A stretch of DNA of 33,554 bases, taken from the NCBI GenBank assembly GCA_016209275.1, contig JACQWM010000062.1, positions 1 to 33,554 of the forward strand. Direction: 5' to 3'. Position 1 is the first letter of the stretch, and every line of letters starts with the position of its first letter. Under the pieces are notes generated by a model that worked only from the letters and a program-made list of their open reading frames with translations, had not been told where the DNA came from and did not search any database. This DNA comes from Candidatus Omnitrophota bacterium. Its GTDB lineage: Bacteria > Omnitrophota > Gorgyraeia > Aquiviventales > Aquiviventaceae. A program made the translations under genes and the position numbers. Positions 2,759 to 33,030 of the stretch are shown here, piece by piece.

Positions 2759-4077
2759 ACCATCCCAGCCGCCTGTGCCTCGGGCTGGCCTCGCTGCTCT
2801 GCGCGGGCGCTGCCGCGCCGACGGGGGAAACCGAACCGTCGGCGCAGCAGATCATCCCGATCAGACACCATGAAGCAGGTCTCGCGGTCAGCGCGGAGGG
2901 CCTCACACTCGCCGACTGCTATCGGCTCGCGCTCGCGCAGAGCGAGGCCGTCGCCATCCGCAACGAGATGCTCAACGCCACCGAGGGGCAATTCCTGCAG
3001 GCCCTCAGCACGGCCCTGCCGAGCGTTGACTATCAGATCGCCGAAAAACGCCAGGACGGCTCGGGCGCATCCGCCTTTTCGCTGAAGCGCATCCCGGAGC
3101 AAAAGTTCGCGCTCAGCCAGCCGCTGTTTTCCGGATTCAAGGAGTTCGCCGCGATGGCCGGCAGCCGGGCCCAACGCCGGCAGCGCGCGCATGAGACAGC
3201 GCGGGCCGAGCACCTGCTGCTCATCGACGTGGCGAACGCGTTTCATCTGCTGCTGCAACAGCAAGGGGACATCCGAGCGCTTGACGCCACCCGCAAGGCC
3301 CTGGAGGATCGGCTCGGCGAATTGCACCGGCGTGAGGAGCTCGGCCGCTCCCGCCAGAGCGAAGTCGCCAGCGCCGAAGCCAGGCTGCGGCGGGTGGAGG
3401 CCGATCTGGAGTCGGCCCGCAGCAGCGAGATGACCGCCCGGCAGCTGATGGAATTTCTCACCGGACAATCGCCGCTGGGGCTCCTCAACGATGATCAGCC
3501 TGACCCGCTCGCACTGCCGGCGGAAGGCGAGTACCTGGCGAAAGCGCACGCCCGGCCCGACGTCAAATCGGCCGAGGAGGCCTGGAATGTGGCCAGGAAA
3601 GCCGTGTGGGTGGCCCAAGCCGGGTTTTGGCCGACGGTCAGCCTGGATGCCAATTATTACACGAAGCGCGCCGGGGTCTCCGAGGACATCACGTGGGATG
3701 CCACCCTCGATGTGAGCATCCCTATTTTTCACGGCGGGAACAATCTGGGAGCCACGAAGACCGCGCGCTCTGAAGCGCGCCAGGCCAAACTCACATTCGA
3801 GCTGACCAAACGCCAGGCAGAGCTGGAGATCCGCAGCGCCTACGCCACCTTGCAAGGCAGCATCGCCCGCTACCTGGCCTTGGTGCGGGCCTTGGATGCG
3901 GCGGAGGAAAATTACCGCCTGCAAGTCGAGGATTACGGACGGAACCTCGTCAACAACCTCGATGTGTTGCAGGCGTTGCAGGACGTGCAGGACGCGCGCC
4001 GCGACGTGATCGCCGCGCAGCATACCGCCAAACGCGACCATTGGAAGCTCCGCGTCGCCACCGGAGAAACGTTATGA
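2755..4077 (+). CDS. TolC-family outer-membrane efflux protein
   Basis: This 440-residue protein begins with a hydrophobic signal segment rich in Leu and Ala ending near AGAAA. Two repeats of long amphipathic helices follow, typical of the outer-membrane efflux protein (OEP) family: the first begins at LTLADCYRLALAQSEAVAIRN (about 56-76) and the second half ends with the NLVNNLDVLQALQDVQDAR helix. Such proteins trimerise into a channel-tunnel spanning outer membrane and periplasm and work with an inner-membrane pump. The start overlaps the marR stop (ATGA), and its own stop overlaps the RND gene start (ATGA), so all three are translationally coupled. The usual periplasmic adaptor gene between channel and pump is absent. 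Confidence 0.9.
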   Translation: MNHPSRLCLGLASLLCAGAAAPTGETEPSAQQIIPIRHHEAGLAVSAEGLTLADCYRLALAQSEAVAIRNEMLNATEGQFLQALSTALPSVDYQIAEKRQDGSGASAFSLKRIPEQKFALSQPLFSGFKEFAAMAGSRAQRRQRAHETARAEHLLLIDVANAFHLLLQQQGDIRALDATRKALEDRLGELHRREELGRSRQSEVASAEARLRRVEADLESARSSEMTARQLMEFLTGQSPLGLLNDDQPDPLALPAEGEYLAKAHARPDVKSAEEAWNVARKAVWVAQAGFWPTVSLDANYYTKRAGVSEDITWDATLDVSIPIFHGGNNLGATKTARSEARQAKLTFELTKRQAELEIRSAYATLQGSIARYLALVRALDAAEENYRLQVEDYGRNLVNNLDVLQALQDVQDARRDVIAAQHTAKRDHWKLRVATGETL

Positions 4078-9807: not shown

Positions 9808-11239
9808 TGTCAACGCAATTTAGAAATGTCCTCGGTCCTGCAAAGTAGAACTGTCCTCTTCGCTGCCAGCGAGACCTGTCCTGTTTCTTAACGCCTTGAG
9901 CCGCTGCACGCGCTCGAATTGTCGCCAGGGATGATCGGGCGTCGGGATGACGACGGCGCGTCGCCGACTCGGAAACCGCACCCGGAGGGCGGGTGCGGGC
10001 GGCCGCGGCACAATCTCCCGAGCGCGCACGACCTCCTCGCCGTGGAGCAGGAGCCGGGTGCCATCAAACGTATCGATGACCGTCACCTGTTTGGGGCGGC
10101 GCGTCCGCCACGGCTCGGTGAGGAGGTACCACTTCCCTCCGCATTGCACCGTGTTGTCCTGGCGTACGAGGCGCGGGGTGTGGAGGGCCAGGATGCGCTT
10201 CAAGGTGCGGGGGGCCGGCGCTGGACGGTGGAGATCCTCCGTCGAGCGCGGAGCGCAACTGAACCGGCGATTGTAGCGGGGGAGATACGCCTGCAGGAAA
10301 CGATTCGCGGCGTCCCGCGTCGTCACCCGAGCAAGCCGCATCTCTTTCAGCACGCGGTCCTGGAACGTGCGAAACAGCCGCTCCACGCGGCCCTTGGCTT
10401 GGGGCGAGTAGGCCGGGATCACCTGCACCCCGAGGTGGGTCAGCGCGCGCTCAAACTGTGTCTGGGGGCGCGTCCGGCCCGCCAGCTCATCTGCCACGCT
10501 CAGCGTCCGCGTCGAGTAGTACGCCCCGTGCCGATCGAGGTAGACGCTCTGGGGCAATCCGTGGCGGAGCACGTAGGCATAGAAGCTCTCAAAGGCCGGC
10601 ATCGTCCCCTCGTAGTCATAGAAGCGGGCGAAGACGTCGCTCGTCGCGTCGTCGATGTAGGCCATCAGCACCAACCGGGGCCCGCGGCCTTCCAACCAGT
10701 CATGGTGCGAGCCATCGAGCTGGAGCATCTCGCCGCATGCCGCCTTGCGCTCGCGCCAGACGTGCTGGGGGCCGACTCGGCGTTGGCGCTGCCACAACCC
10801 GGCCTCGCGCAGCCACTGGCGCAGCGTCTCGCGGCTCACGGTGAGGTGATCGCGCTCGTGGAGCTTCTCGCTTGCCAGCGTCGGCCCGAAGCCCGCGTAG
10901 CGGGCTTGATAGCGCCGCAGGACCTGCTGCTTGAGCGCCGGCGGTGCGCGACGGTTGGACGGGTGGCCGCGCAGTCGGTGCACGATGCCTGGCGGGCCGG
11001 AGCCCCGCACCCGCTGCACCCACCGCCGCACTTGCCGCACCGAGAGTGCGAGCAGCTCGGCGGCCTGCCGCTGACGCATCTTCCGATCGAGTACTTGTTG
11101 CACCACCATCAACCGTCGGGCTTCTTCGCGCGTCATGACGAGCCTCGCCTCCATCGACATCATCCCCTCCTCGTGAGGGCATGATGGTAGAGGACACTTC
11201 TATCTTGCGCAAAGAGGACATTATCATCTTGCTGTTACA
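9808..11239 (-). mobile_element. Complete insertion sequence, IS1202/ISNCY-like, 1432 bp
   Basis: The element is bounded by 15-bp direct repeats and by imperfect terminal inverted repeats of 52 and 51 bp (9808-9859 and 11189-11239). Each end begins TGT and contains two copies of TGTCCTC about 24 nt apart, probably transposase-binding sites. One transposase gene fills almost the whole element, and its stop codon lies in the left terminal repeat. From memory, long target duplications (15 bp and more) are typical of the IS1202-like group. The element separates the livF stop codon from the exbB promoter without damaging either. Confidence 0.9.
9820..11163 (-). CDS. DDE transposase, IS1202/ISNCY-like
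   Basis: A 447-residue transposase with an N-terminal helix-turn-helix region (about 30-120, including QRQAAELLALSVRQVRRWV) and an rve-type catalytic core. The likely DDE triad is D150 (LQLDGSHHDW), D210 (VYLDRHGAYY) and E261 (QAKGRVERLFRTFQ). It has an additional C-terminal region of about 130 residues. No frameshift or stop interrupts it, so it should be active. A strong GAGGAGGGG precedes a cluster of start codons; MM at 11163/11160 and M at 11154 are all possible starts. It cuts and joins DNA at the element ends. Confidence 0.92.
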   Translation of the reverse strand: MMSMEARLVMTREEARRLMVVQQVLDRKMRQRQAAELLALSVRQVRRWVQRVRGSGPPGIVHRLRGHPSNRRAPPALKQQVLRRYQARYAGFGPTLASEKLHERDHLTVSRETLRQWLREAGLWQRQRRVGPQHVWRERKAACGEMLQLDGSHHDWLEGRGPRLVLMAYIDDATSDVFARFYDYEGTMPAFESFYAYVLRHGLPQSVYLDRHGAYYSTRTLSVADELAGRTRPQTQFERALTHLGVQVIPAYSPQAKGRVERLFRTFQDRVLKEMRLARVTTRDAANRFLQAYLPRYNRRFSCAPRSTEDLHRPAPAPRTLKRILALHTPRLVRQDNTVQCGGKWYLLTEPWRTRRPKQVTVIDTFDGTRLLLHGEEVVRAREIVPRPPAPALRVRFPSRRRAVVIPTPDHPWRQFERVQRLKALRNRTGLAGSEEDSSTLQDRGHF

Positions 11240-28030: not shown

Positions 28031-30295
28031 TTAGCTTGCGAGGAGATTCAGGGCGGCGCCGGCGCGGAACCAGCGGATCTGCTCCTCGGTCATCGAATGC
28101 GCCAAGGGCAGCGGCCGGCTGGAGCCATCGCGATGATGCAGGGTCGCCTGCAACAGCTTATTGGGTGCGAGCTGTGCCAACCCGTGGATGCTGATGCGGT
28201 CGTCGGCTTTGATGTGCTCCCAATCGGTGGGATTGACGAAGGTGCACGGCAAGATGCCTTGTTTTTTCAGATTCGTGAGATGCAGCCGGGCGAAACTTTT
28301 CGCAATGACGAGCGTGCAGCCAAGATACCGCGGCGACATCGCCGCATGCTCGCGGCTGGAGCCCTCGCCGTAGTTGTCATCGCCGACCGCCGCCCAGCCC
28401 AGCCCCTCGGCCTTGTAGTGGCGCGCGACCTGCGCCATCGGCTTCTTGCGCCCGTCGAGCTGATCGATCGCCGTGCCGGCTTCATTGGTGAAGACGTTTT
28501 CCGCCGCCGTGAACATGTTGTCGCTGATCCGATCCAGATGCCCTCGAAATCGCAGCCATTTGCCGGCTGGGGAAATATGGTCCGTCGTGCATTGCCCTTT
28601 GACTTTCAGGAGCATGGGAAGCTGATCAAAATCTTTTCCATCCCAGGCGGGGAACGGCGGAAGCGCCTGCAACCGCTCGCTCTGTGGCGCAATGAGCACG
28701 CGCACGGCGTTCCGCTCCGTTAATGCCTTTGGCGGCAAGAAACCGGCCGCCCCCGGCGCAAAACCTTTCGATGGCAGTTCTGGAGCCGCCGGCGGCTGCA
28801 GCATGATCGTGCGCCCATCAGGAGCCGTCACCGGATCCGTGACAGGATTGAATCGCAAATCACCGACCAGGCTCATCGCGGTGACGATCTCCGGGCTGCC
28901 CATGAAGGACAGCGTCTCCATCGTGCCGTCGTTGCGGCCGGGAAAATTGCGGTTGAACGAGGTCAGAATCGAATTGCTCTCGCCCGGCTTTACATCATCC
29001 CGCTTCCACTGGCCGATGCACGGACCGCAGGCGTTGGCTAAGACGGTGCCCCCGATTTCTTCGAGCGCCTTCAACTGCCCATCCCGGCGGATGGTGTTCT
29101 GGATCTGATCTGATCCCGGCGTGATCAGAAAATAGATCCGCGATGTTAAGCCGGCCTGCTTCGCTTGCTCGGCAACAGCTGCCGCTCGGCCGATATCCTC
29201 ATAGGAAGAATTGGTGCAGCTGCCGATGAGGGCCGCGCGGATCTGCGGCGGATACTGGTGGCGTTCCACATCTTTGGCTAATTGTGAAATCGGCCGGGCC
29301 AGATCCGGCCGCCGCGGCCCGACAATGTGCGGCTCAAGCGTTGCGAGATCGATCTCGACGATCTGGTCAAAAAACCGCTTGGGGTCGCCGTGGACTTGCG
29401 CATCGGCGCGAAGATCGGCGGCGTGCTGCTCTGCCAGCTCGGCAACCCCGGCCCGGTTCGTCGCCCGCAGGTACGCGCTCATGCGCTCATCGAAGGGGAA
29501 CACCGAGGTGGTCGCGCCAATTTCTGCGCCCATGTTGGTGATCGTGCCTTTGCCGGTGGCACTGATCGAGGCGGTGCCGGGCCCGAAAAACTCGATGATG
29601 GCGTCGGTGCCGCCTTTGGTCGTGAGGATGCCGCACAGCTTCAGGATCACGTCTTTGGGCGAGGTCCAGCCGGAGAGCGCGCCGGTTAAGCGCACACCGA
29701 TCAGTTTCGGATGCTTCACTTCCCATGGCAGCCCGGCCATCACATCGGCGGCGTCCGAGCCTCCGACGCCAATCGCGAGCATCCCCAGACCGCCGCCGTT
29801 GGGCGTGTGGGAATCGGTGCCGATCAGCAGCCCGCCGGGAAACGCGTACTCTTCGAGCACCACCTGGTGGATGATGCCGGCCCCCGGCTCCCAGAATCCC
29901 ATGCCGTAGCGCGCAGCAGCACTCCGCAAAAAATCGTAGACCTCTTGATTAGCTTCCAAGGCGTATTTCATGTCGTCGGCGACTCCGACGCGGGCCTGGA
30001 TGAGATGGTCGCAGTGCACCGTCGTCGGCACGGCCACCGTGTCGCGCTTCGCCTGCATGAACTGGAGGATGGCCATCTGTGCTGTGGCATCCTGCATGGC
30101 CACCCGGTCCGGCTGCAGCGTGACGTAGCTCGCACCCCGTTTCCATTCGTGCCGCTCCGGATCCACCGCGTGGGCGATGAGGATTTTTTCGGCCAGCGTG
30201 ATCGGCCGGCCCAGCCGCTTGCGCAGCCACGCCGCCTTCGCCGGCAAGGCGCTGTAGAGCGCCGTGATGGCGCCCAGTTCGTCCGTGGTGATCAT
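28031..30295 (-). CDS. acn: Aconitate hydratase (mitochondrial-type aconitase)
   Basis: A 754-residue aconitase that isomerises citrate and isocitrate in the TCA cycle. The 4Fe-4S ligands are C360 (GSCTNSSYED), C423 and C426 (CGPCIGQW). Other active-site blocks are GTDSHTPNGGGLG (159-171) and GDDNYGEGSSREHAA in the C-terminal swivel domain. Length and the KGQCTTDHISPAGKW stretch fit the mitochondrial-type group rather than bacterial AcnB. A -10 hexamer TATAAT ends 7 nt before the ATG and there is no ribosome-binding site, so the mRNA may be leaderless. It is divergent from the riboswitch-controlled operon and upstream of phoBR. Confidence 0.95.
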   Translation of the reverse strand: MITTDELGAITALYSALPAKAAWLRKRLGRPITLAEKILIAHAVDPERHEWKRGASYVTLQPDRVAMQDATAQMAILQFMQAKRDTVAVPTTVHCDHLIQARVGVADDMKYALEANQEVYDFLRSAAARYGMGFWEPGAGIIHQVVLEEYAFPGGLLIGTDSHTPNGGGLGMLAIGVGGSDAADVMAGLPWEVKHPKLIGVRLTGALSGWTSPKDVILKLCGILTTKGGTDAIIEFFGPGTASISATGKGTITNMGAEIGATTSVFPFDERMSAYLRATNRAGVAELAEQHAADLRADAQVHGDPKRFFDQIVEIDLATLEPHIVGPRRPDLARPISQLAKDVERHQYPPQIRAALIGSCTNSSYEDIGRAAAVAEQAKQAGLTSRIYFLITPGSDQIQNTIRRDGQLKALEEIGGTVLANACGPCIGQWKRDDVKPGESNSILTSFNRNFPGRNDGTMETLSFMGSPEIVTAMSLVGDLRFNPVTDPVTAPDGRTIMLQPPAAPELPSKGFAPGAAGFLPPKALTERNAVRVLIAPQSERLQALPPFPAWDGKDFDQLPMLLKVKGQCTTDHISPAGKWLRFRGHLDRISDNMFTAAENVFTNEAGTAIDQLDGRKKPMAQVARHYKAEGLGWAAVGDDNYGEGSSREHAAMSPRYLGCTLVIAKSFARLHLTNLKKQGILPCTFVNPTDWEHIKADDRISIHGLAQLAPNKLLQATLHHRDGSSRPLPLAHSMTEEQIRWFRAGAALNLLAS

Positions 30296-30319: not shown

Positions 30320-30349
30320 TTGCCGGTACGCCGCGTTCGGAGGTATACT
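30320..30349 (+). promoter_or_regulatory. Promoter of riboswitch-controlled operon
   Basis: TTGCCG (30320-30325) and TATACT (30344-30349) with 18 nt between. The predicted start near 30356 is about 10 nt before the riboswitch. Confidence 0.6.
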
Positions 30350-30365
30350 AATAAGTAGACTGACG

Positions 30366-30440
30366 AGAAAGGCAAACTCACGGTGACGTGAGGGCGCAAA
30401 GCCACGGGTCTCAAGAAAGATGGCCGGGCTACCGTCCGGT
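30366..30440 (+). ncRNA. Class-I cyclic-di-GMP riboswitch (GEMM-I)
   Basis: The conserved GEMM core is present in order: GGCAAAC (30371-30377), a hairpin with CTCACG/CGTGAG stem and GTGA (GNRA) tetraloop (30377-30392), GCGCAAAGCCACGGG (30394-30408) and GGCCGGGCTACCG (30422-30434). In GEMM-I RNAs the GNRA loop docks into a receptor in the other stem. The base directly before GCAAAC is G (equivalent to G20 in the well-studied Vibrio RNA by my alignment), which favours c-di-GMP over cGAMP. An intrinsic terminator follows about 10 nt downstream. Whether ligand turns the gene on or off cannot be decided from sequence by eye. Confidence 0.9.
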
Positions 30441-30449
30441 TAAGAGATC

Positions 30450-30483
30450 GCCGAGCTGCCGAATGAGGCGGCTCGGCCTTTTT
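30450..30483 (+). terminator. Intrinsic terminator, riboswitch expression platform
   Basis: A stem GCCGAGC/GCTCGGC extended by a T-G wobble and GCC/GGC, loop GAATGA, is followed directly by CTTTTT. It lies between the GEMM aptamer and the gene it controls, the usual arrangement for transcriptional control. Confidence 0.9.
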
Positions 30484-30487
30484 AGTT

Positions 30488-30527
30488 CGATATCAGATAT
30501 GAAATGGGCATTTCATATCTGATATCG
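30488..30527 (+). repeat. GATATC palindromic repeat, copy 3 (after riboswitch terminator)
   Basis: A 40-bp palindrome with perfect 19-bp arms (CGATATCAGATATGAAATG) around GG. It begins 4 nt after the terminator T-run and ends 23 nt before the next ATG. It is followed by CCTG in the direction of transcription, as in the minus-strand copies. Confidence 0.9.
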
Positions 30528-30550
30528 CCTGAAGACGCAGGAGGCGAGGG

Positions 30551-31171
30551 ATGGGACGTTCAACGATGAAGGCTTGGCTGCTCGTGGGGTTGCTCCTCGC
30601 CACCGCCGGTTACGTGATCGCCGAGGAGATCACGCTGACCACCTACTACCCCTCCCCCCGCGGGGTGTATCAAGAGCTGCGCAGCACAAGCAGCTCGTAC
30701 TTCGCCACGGGTGGCGGCAGTGTGGGGATCGGGACGGATGCGCTCAACGCAGCCGCCAGGTTTCAGGTCAAGGGCAATACGGTCGTGCAGGACGGACAGT
30801 TTCAATTAGGCGGCCTGCCGGCTGACCCGCCCGCCTTGGGCAGTGGAGCGATGTACTTCAATACCACGGATAACGAAGCCAAGATTTTCCAAAGCGGGGC
30901 CTGGCAACGGTTTGGCGGAGGCGGCGGCGTGAAAGTGGGCAGCGGAGCCGCGGTCAGCGGCGGCACCATCAATCCGCTCCCAGGATTTACACGAGCGAGC
31001 TGCGCTGTCATTGTCGCTCCCAACGGATGCCCCTATCTGATTGGGGGGCACAACATCCCGGCGGCCGGCTGGTCATCGACATGCAACTGGTCCCTGACAC
31101 CGCAAGCCGGCGGAGGCGGCTGGACGTACAGCGGCAGCCAGGGCGGCGCCTACCTGATGATTTGCCAATGA
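30551..31171 (+). CDS. Secreted protein with YYPSPRGVY N-terminal motif, c-di-GMP-controlled
   Basis: A 206-residue protein of unknown function. A signal peptide (1-24, cleavage at VIA/EE) leaves a mature N-terminus with the striking EITLTTYYPSPRGVYQELR. A GSVGIGTDALNAAARFQVKG segment (56-75) and GAMYFNTTDNEAKIFQSGAW (99-118) follow; both resemble repeats in tail-fibre and adhesin-like surface proteins. The C-terminal half is Gly-rich and has four Cys (151, 160, 178, 205), possibly two disulfides. AGGAGG 6 nt before the ATG fixes the start. The riboswitch upstream suggests a role in surface attachment or a cell-surface appendage, an inference only. Its stop overlaps the next start (ATGA). Confidence 0.85.
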   Translation: MGRSTMKAWLLVGLLLATAGYVIAEEITLTTYYPSPRGVYQELRSTSSSYFATGGGSVGIGTDALNAAARFQVKGNTVVQDGQFQLGGLPADPPALGSGAMYFNTTDNEAKIFQSGAWQRFGGGGGVKVGSGAAVSGGTINPLPGFTRASCAVIVAPNGCPYLIGGHNIPAAGWSSTCNWSLTPQAGGGGWTYSGSQGGAYLMICQ

Positions 31172-31611
31172 ACCGACGCGGCGTATGGATGGGAGTGCTC
31201 ATCGCGACCGCCGTGCCGGTTCATGCGGCCATGGCGGATGAGTCTGAAGGCGCTGTCGGCCGATGCGCCGATGCAGTCAAGGCGGTGCTCCAAGCCAACC
31301 CCTCCCAAACAGAGCAGGTCCTTGAGGAGCTCAAGGTCCGGGATCCGGCGACGTACGAGCGTGTGCATCAAGCCCTCACGCTTCAACAGCGCATGGAAGC
31401 CATCATCGACCAATTCCGCAACGGCGGCATCAGCGAGGAGACGGCGCGCGCACAACTCGTGCCGCTCGTCAGGGAGCAACTGGACGGTGAGCTAGCGACG
31501 CTGGATGCGGCGATCGCCGAAACCCGAACGCGCCTGGAAACGCTGGAACGCCAACGGCAAGATCCGGAAGGCACGATCACTTCCCGCATTGACCGGTTGC
31601 TCGGTAACTGA
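31168..31611 (+). CDS. Small secreted coiled-coil protein, unknown function
   Basis: A 147-residue protein not recognised as a known family. It has a signal peptide (MNRRGVWMGVLIATAVPVHA, then AMA) and a single mature Cys (33). The rest is almost entirely helical, with a charged coiled-coil region from about 95 to 140. The ATG at 31168 overlaps the upstream stop (ATGA) and there is no separate ribosome-binding site, so it is translationally coupled to the YYPSPRGVY protein and shares its c-di-GMP control. It may be a periplasmic chaperone or partner of that protein, which is inference from the pairing. Confidence 0.75.
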   Translation: MNRRGVWMGVLIATAVPVHAAMADESEGAVGRCADAVKAVLQANPSQTEQVLEELKVRDPATYERVHQALTLQQRMEAIIDQFRNGGISEETARAQLVPLVREQLDGELATLDAAIAETRTRLETLERQRQDPEGTITSRIDRLLGN

Positions 31612-31802: not shown

Positions 31803-32081
31803 ATGGCCGTATGGATGACCGCCACCTTAAGCAGCAAGGCCCAGATTACCCTGCCGAAGCGGGTGCGCGAACTGTTGGGTCTGCGGGGGAAAGGGGACCA
31901 AGTCGGGTTTGTGGTGGATGAAAAAACTCACCGGATTATCATGACCAAGATCACGTTGGTGCCCGAGGAAGAGCCGTATACCGCCGAAGAACTGCGCAAG
32001 CTGCTCAAGCTGGCCAAGGCGCCAGGGGGGAAGGCCTTTCCTTCAGCCGAGGCGTTTTTGAAGCACGTGCGATCGCTCTAG
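31803..32081 (+). CDS. AbrB/MazE-type antitoxin
   Basis: A 92-residue protein with an N-terminal swapped-hairpin AbrB DNA-binding domain (ATLSSKAQITLPKRVRELLG, residues 7-26, then GDQVGFVVDEKTHRIIM). The C-terminal tail is helical and presumably holds the toxin. AAGGAG lies 6 nt before the ATG. The promoter is followed by a perfect inverted repeat that is a good candidate for autoregulation. It lies 6 nt before a RelE-type toxin gene. Confidence 0.85.
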   Translation: MAVWMTATLSSKAQITLPKRVRELLGLRGKGDQVGFVVDEKTHRIIMTKITLVPEEEPYTAEELRKLLKLAKAPGGKAFPSAEAFLKHVRSL

Positions 32082-32087
32082 TGAATC

Positions 32088-32363
32088 ATGCAGTACCAAA
32101 GCAGCCCGCGCTTTGATCGCAGTGTTGCGCGGCTGGATGCCACCCGAAAACGCAGCGTGCAGGAAACCGTGGAACGGCTCGTGGCAGCCTTCGAAACTGG
32201 TCAGGCGCCGGCGGGGTTGGGACTCACGCAGCTTCGACCAAACCTCTGGGAGTGCCGAGCGGGCCTGAGTGACCGCGTGGTGTTCTACCGACGGCGCGAT
32301 GCGGTGGAGTTTTTGCTCGCAGGCAACCACGATGGCATCAAGCGATTTCTTCGCGACTGGTAA
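32088..32363 (+). CDS. RelE/ParE-superfamily toxin
   Basis: A 91-residue protein with the compact RelE/ParE fold: an N-terminal beta-strand and helices (MQYQSSPRFDRSVARLD; RSVQETVERLVAAF), then strands with LWECRAGLSDRVVFYRR and the final LAGNHDGIKRFLRDW. RelE-type toxins usually cut mRNA on the ribosome and ParE-type inhibit gyrase; sequence does not decide. It follows the AbrB-like antitoxin by 6 nt and has no ribosome-binding site of its own. Its end converges on purN, 25 bp away. Confidence 0.75.
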   Translation: MQYQSSPRFDRSVARLDATRKRSVQETVERLVAAFETGQAPAGLGLTQLRPNLWECRAGLSDRVVFYRRRDAVEFLLAGNHDGIKRFLRDW

Positions 32364-32990: not shown

Positions 32991-33030
32991 CGATATCAGA
33001 TATGAAACGGCCGTTTCATATCTGATATCG
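32991..33030 (-). repeat. GATATC palindromic repeat, copy 4 (trxA-purN gap)
   Basis: A perfect 40-bp palindrome: each arm is CGATATCAGATATGAAACGG or its complement. It begins 2 nt after the trxA stop codon and ends 14 nt before the purN ATG. CCTT follows it in the direction of transcription. Confidence 0.92.

Follow-up and report, generated by a model that had tools for sequence, protein, structure and literature searches.

One of the described systems closest to the leader studied here is the c-di-GMP-I riboswitch (GEMM-I, RF01051), with which it shares the three-helix aptamer, the pocket residues G20, A47 and C92, the position in a leader and the intrinsic terminator. It differs in that the 3' half of the aptamer (the 3' strands of P3 and P1, with C92) occurs twice and the second occurrence serves as a terminator arm. 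In the cGAMP riboswitch of Geobacter pilM, an ON switch of single-strand design, the terminator consumes the aptamer 3' strand that carries the ligand-pairing C (PMC9262584). Our locus is similar in this respect, in its connection with pilus genes and, if the reading preferred below is right, in the sign of its response, but the pilM switch has A, not G, as the discriminating base, and one 3' strand. More than one c-di-GMP-sensing fold in a leader is also known from tandem c-di-GMP-I riboswitches (PMC9481103); these, however, are complete aptamers that can bind simultaneously, whereas here the two folds share a 5' half and exclude each other. Our literature searches, confined to open-licence papers, found no duplicated or shared aptamer half. 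Should both 3' halves prove functional, a single 5' strand contested by two 3' strands would be a riboswitch layout with no precedent in the literature searched.

The aptamer and its predicted ligand

The host is an Omnitrophota MAG (1.8 Mb in 63 contigs, 96.7% complete). The stretch that was analysed, 33,554 nt of contig C62, is called the window below. The leader lies between a divergent aconitase-like gene (28031-30295, minus strand) and ORF1; its features are collected in Table 1. An earlier note, written from the sequence alone, had described a GEMM-I aptamer, an intrinsic terminator and a strong ribosome-binding site here. All three were found, the aptamer as an above-gathering Rfam match at 30362-30437 (+).

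Table 1. Features of the leader and of the two genes that follow it
Feature	Position	Strand	Basis or remark
Sigma-70-like promoter, TTGCCG-18-TATACT	30320-30349	+	9/12 matches; 1 found against 0.4 expected in shuffles
Aptamer 5' half: P1 5' strand, J1/2 with G20 (30371), P2 hairpin, A47 (30398), P3 5' strand AGCCACGGGTCTC	30362-30412	+	Rfam alignment; pocket positions per PMC6274999 mapped on the Rfam structure line
Copy A of aptamer 3' half (AAGATGGCCGGGCTACCGTCCG), C92 at 30432, P1 GACG/CGUC	30417-30438	+	
Copy B of aptamer 3' half (GAGATCGCCGAGCTGCCGAATG), C92 equivalent at 30459	30444-30465	+	Able to pair with the same 5' half
Intrinsic terminator: stem 30450-30477, 11 pairs, tail CTTTTT	30450-30483	+	Hairpin -25.2 kcal/mol
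Copy of genome-wide palindromic repeat, GATATCAGATAT...ATATCTGATATC, in 5' UTR	30489-30526	.	Between terminator and Shine-Dalgarno
Shine-Dalgarno AGGAGG	30539-30544	+	Sequence; precedes ATG 30551
ORF1, YYPSPRGVY-type exported protein, 206 aa	30551-31171	+	No Pfam or NCBIfam match
ORF2, coiled-coil-like exported protein, 147 aa	31168-31611	+	ATGA overlap with ORF1

The best-scoring model at the window is RF03167 (c-di-GMP-I-GGC; 67.9 bits, gathering 59), with RF01051 at 66.6 bits (gathering 35). The RF03167 consensus has G in J2/3 (GCGAAGCC, GCGAAgCc) whereas the window has A (GCAAAGCC). Taking G in place of A47 as the GGC hallmark, which is our reading of the model consensus and of its name, the window is not a true GGC variant despite its score.

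In the structure of the cGAMP riboswitch (PMC6274999), the discriminating base immediately precedes P2, J2/3 holds a stacking A, and J1/3 ends with the C that pairs with the ligand. At these positions the window has G20, A47 and C92, the c-di-GMP set, rather than the A at position 20 of GEMM-Ib (cGAMP) aptamers. Enzymes that make cGAMP have Ser at a GGDEF position that is otherwise Asp (PMC6456294). In the host genome the motif could be read in five GGDEF domains, all of which keep the c-di-GMP-type Asp; the tally excludes two degenerate GGDEF matches and comes from an incomplete MAG. Because of the pocket residues and these domains, c-di-GMP is the likely ligand, as the earlier note had supposed, and cGAMP is unlikely. 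Four other host loci (C28:16505, C52:40450, C14:20173 and C53:49380) do have the cGAMP-type A at position 20, in a genome with no recognisable Ser-type GGDEF; the aptamer of C28 drives a close paralog of ORF1.

A duplicated 3' half

The leader contains only one aptamer 5' half, and so is not a tandem of two complete aptamers, but two 3' halves, copy B starting about 27 nt after copy A. Copy B is absent from the earlier note. Read side by side, nine of the 21 GEMM-I loci of the host, the window included, have a second copy. It generally lies about 25-45 nt from the first, the distance in C15 being about 97 nt, and in the host loci inspected the terminator draws on this copy or on the sequence right beside it. 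At one of the loci, C13, the Rfam models pick different copies (3302-3419 and 3301-3378, the latter by RF01051). At another, C15:23014 (L021, L037), palindromic insertions lie between P2 and the AAAGC segment, and the 3' halves are still duplicated.

The arrangement extends beyond the host. With a weight matrix, two copies were found at 22 of 108 family loci from nine genomes, whereas dinucleotide-shuffled downstream sequence gave 0.17 such loci on average; the 108 were taken from the best-scoring matches, which makes the fraction a biased one. A strict two-copy pattern matched 20 sites, spread over 14 of 384 Omnitrophota genomes (reversed-pattern controls, 0). Five of these sites, with AT-rich spacers, belong to a different family within the class. 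Copy starts are 25-45 nt apart in 34 of 36 loci. Since the identity of A and B within one locus (14.6/18) is barely above that between loci (13.6), the copies are not fresh duplications. The duplicated-3'-half GEMM-I variant is recurrent in Omnitrophota, the one phylum that was surveyed (the host genome being a draft), and apparently undescribed.

Can copy B pair with the 5' half? In a set of 36 loci, the 12-nt segment that ends with the GAU of copy B pairs with the P3 5' strand of its own locus at a mean of -7.74 kcal/mol, against -4.48 when loci are permuted (z -9.0; 0 of 10,000 permutations), although related sequences inflate permutation tests of this kind. The complementary segment ahead of copy B lies mostly outside the terminator stem. 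In its outer pairs (4, 5 and 6), T-A and C-G, or A-T and G-C, replace each other in step; these changes are compensatory, and the observed pairing was reached by none of 2000 shuffles. Some of this covariation may have been carried over from the duplication event, because at pairs 4-7 the 5' half is complementary about equally to A and B (75/108 and 100/144). The P1 strands also fit their own 5' strand, copy A (z -4.6) and copy B (z -2.8), the signal for B coming mostly from a CTGG/CCAG subgroup; outside that subgroup it is weak, with 828 of 10,000 permutations attaining it. Judged by these pairings, two mutually exclusive aptamer folds can form on one 5' half.

Folding and the proposed sign of the switch

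Copy B contains the 5' arm of the terminator. The terminator stays free in the copy-A fold and cannot coexist with the copy-B fold. A contest between aptamer and terminator, for which the earlier note had proposed a folding check, is therefore present in altered form: the terminator does not overlap the aptamer called by Rfam, which uses copy A, and competes only with the alternative copy-B aptamer.

Folding energies, which leave out ligand and tertiary contacts, were compared at eight host loci. As long as the terminator lacks its 3' arm, the energies favour the copy-B core at every one of them, by 3.7-8.3 kcal/mol; once the arm is present, copy A together with the terminator draws level or moves ahead at seven. 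When P1 and P3 are both enforced, copy B gives the more stable aptamer in seven of the eight. At the window copy A is then better by 3.6 kcal/mol: it has its GACG/CGUC P1 and a perfect inner P3, against one C.A mismatch and a minimal P1 for copy B. The full window leader, folded at equilibrium without ligand, forms the terminator with a probability of 0.99.

The reading that we prefer, with modest confidence, is of a GEMM-I riboswitch with a duplicated 3' half that c-di-GMP would turn on by way of copy B. The single 5' half (P1 5' strand, P2 and P3 5' strand) would be completed either by copy A, which is transcribed earlier, or by copy B. In the first case the terminator would be free to form; in the second its 5' arm would be consumed and transcription would read through. 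c-di-GMP would stabilize the copy-B aptamer against the terminator, and copy A, by competing for the 5' half, would lessen leakage and set the threshold. We prefer an ON switch because the ligand-free leader is predicted to terminate, so that ligand should open it if it is regulated at all, and because, of the presumed ligand-binding folds, only the one made with copy B blocks the terminator. Host loci with a single 3' half that doubles as terminator arm would be ON switches of a comparable design. If, however, copy A binds the ligand as well as copy B does, or better, the ligand would favour termination.

A related and more tentative proposal is that both 3' halves are ligand-competent, giving two exclusive c-di-GMP aptamers of which the first would permit and the second prevent termination. 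The response would then be set by the time during transcription at which the ligand binds, and might be non-monotonic. As the layout occurs in dozens of loci, it could be used to test how the timing of ligand binding sets gene output.

A plain OFF switch is a serious rival, though we rate it as less likely than the ON switch. Here c-di-GMP would lock the early copy-A aptamer, leaving copy B free and the terminator able to form; in the absence of ligand, copy B would invade the 5' half and act as antiterminator. The stronger P1 and perfect P3 of copy A at the window fit such a scheme, as does the use of copy A by the Rfam alignment. So does stepwise folding of the window leader: the earliest structure is aptamer A (P 0.71 at 30438), which at the next stage is displaced, once the copy-A self-hairpin and the outer pairing of copy B appear; the terminator comes last. 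Yet termination of the ligand-free leader at equilibrium means that a strong antiterminator is missing, and the complete copy-B aptamer is more stable by 2-13 kcal/mol in C13, C29:15965, C30 and both C51 loci.

We consider it rather improbable that copy B is a mere terminator arm, the relic of an ancestral single-copy switch, with only copy A binding ligand and the duplication playing no regulatory part. The terminator does constrain part of copy B, and the P1 complementarity of copy B outside the CTGG subgroup is not significant; but the segment ahead of copy B shows specific complementarity to the 5' half of its own locus, with compensatory pairs, and a further Omnitrophota family, whose AT-rich spacers are unrelated, keeps both copies. 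Finally, an ordinary GEMM-I aptamer followed by a separate, uncoupled terminator, in a constitutive or non-functional leader, would be in keeping with the lack of overlap between the copy-A aptamer and the terminator, but is very hard to reconcile with recurrence at conserved spacing across many operons, genomes and families.

Downstream genes and repeats

Omnitrophota appear to be rich in c-di-GMP riboswitches. Ninety-two of 116 sampled genomes have an RF01051 match above cut-off, and the host, with 20 matches in 1.8 Mb, ranks first among them; one genome of the family exceeds it with 25. The earlier note had advised a search for other genes under the same riboswitch, and several of the 20 matches head prepilin-like operons. 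Among the genes downstream of host GEMM-I aptamers, some are prepilin-like or pilus-type (C29, C51 and C52 by inspection; C15 by an N_methyl match), others encode a subtilase (C13), an LVIVD-repeat protein (C54) or a sensor kinase (C53), and three are YYPSP-type genes (C62, C28 and C25).

ORF1 has a signal peptide (by inspection). Its homologs in named records are all from Omnitrophota MAGs, and its C-terminal part has few relatives. Of 27 genomes of the family, 20 encode a protein of the YYPSP type. Seven family genomes other than the host have a same-strand GEMM-I 1.1-5.5 kb upstream of a YYPSP-type gene, and in the loci read it is mostly prepilin-like (minor pilin) genes that stand in between. 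Because the YYPSP-type genes of relatives lie in such GEMM-led operons, a pilus- or tip-associated role for the protein is plausible; the position of the gene is one that we take to resemble the tip-adhesin slot of minor-pilin operons. The surface or matrix role that the earlier note had given to the YYPSPRGVY protein thereby becomes more specific, while its partnership with the coiled-coil protein gained no support. ORF2 has no homolog in 26 family genomes, so that the pair is not a conserved unit, although the ATGA overlap makes the proposed translational coupling plausible at this locus. An Rfam scan beside the named Omnitrophota YYPSP loci gave only two GEMM-I matches, neither directly upstream of the matched genes, and the association of GEMM-I with YYPSP-type genes is therefore clear within the family only. 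There, a conserved, uncharacterized type of exported protein is tied to pilus operons of uncultured bacteria that are predicted to be under c-di-GMP control.

The palindromic repeat in the 5' UTR, also absent from the earlier note, has 93 + 99 half-sites genome-wide (reversed control, 0). A second copy within the window is at 32992-33029. The repeat is found inside the P3 loop of five of the 21 GEMM-I loci (C29:9842, C29:12867, C14:19909, C2 and C56), and C42:11931 and C14:20173 (L010, L014) have a similar long, branched insertion in this loop (CCCACCCCCTGCTGG...CCAGCAGGGGGTGGG). In C42 (L028) the aptamer is followed by a Y1_Tnp-type (IS200-like) protein, a possible source of the palindromes. 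Elsewhere in the window, an ORF at 9820-11163 (-) resembles an integrase-type transposase, and two adjoining small ORFs at 31803-32363 (+) resemble an AbrB-type antitoxin and a RelE-type toxin (all by inspection).
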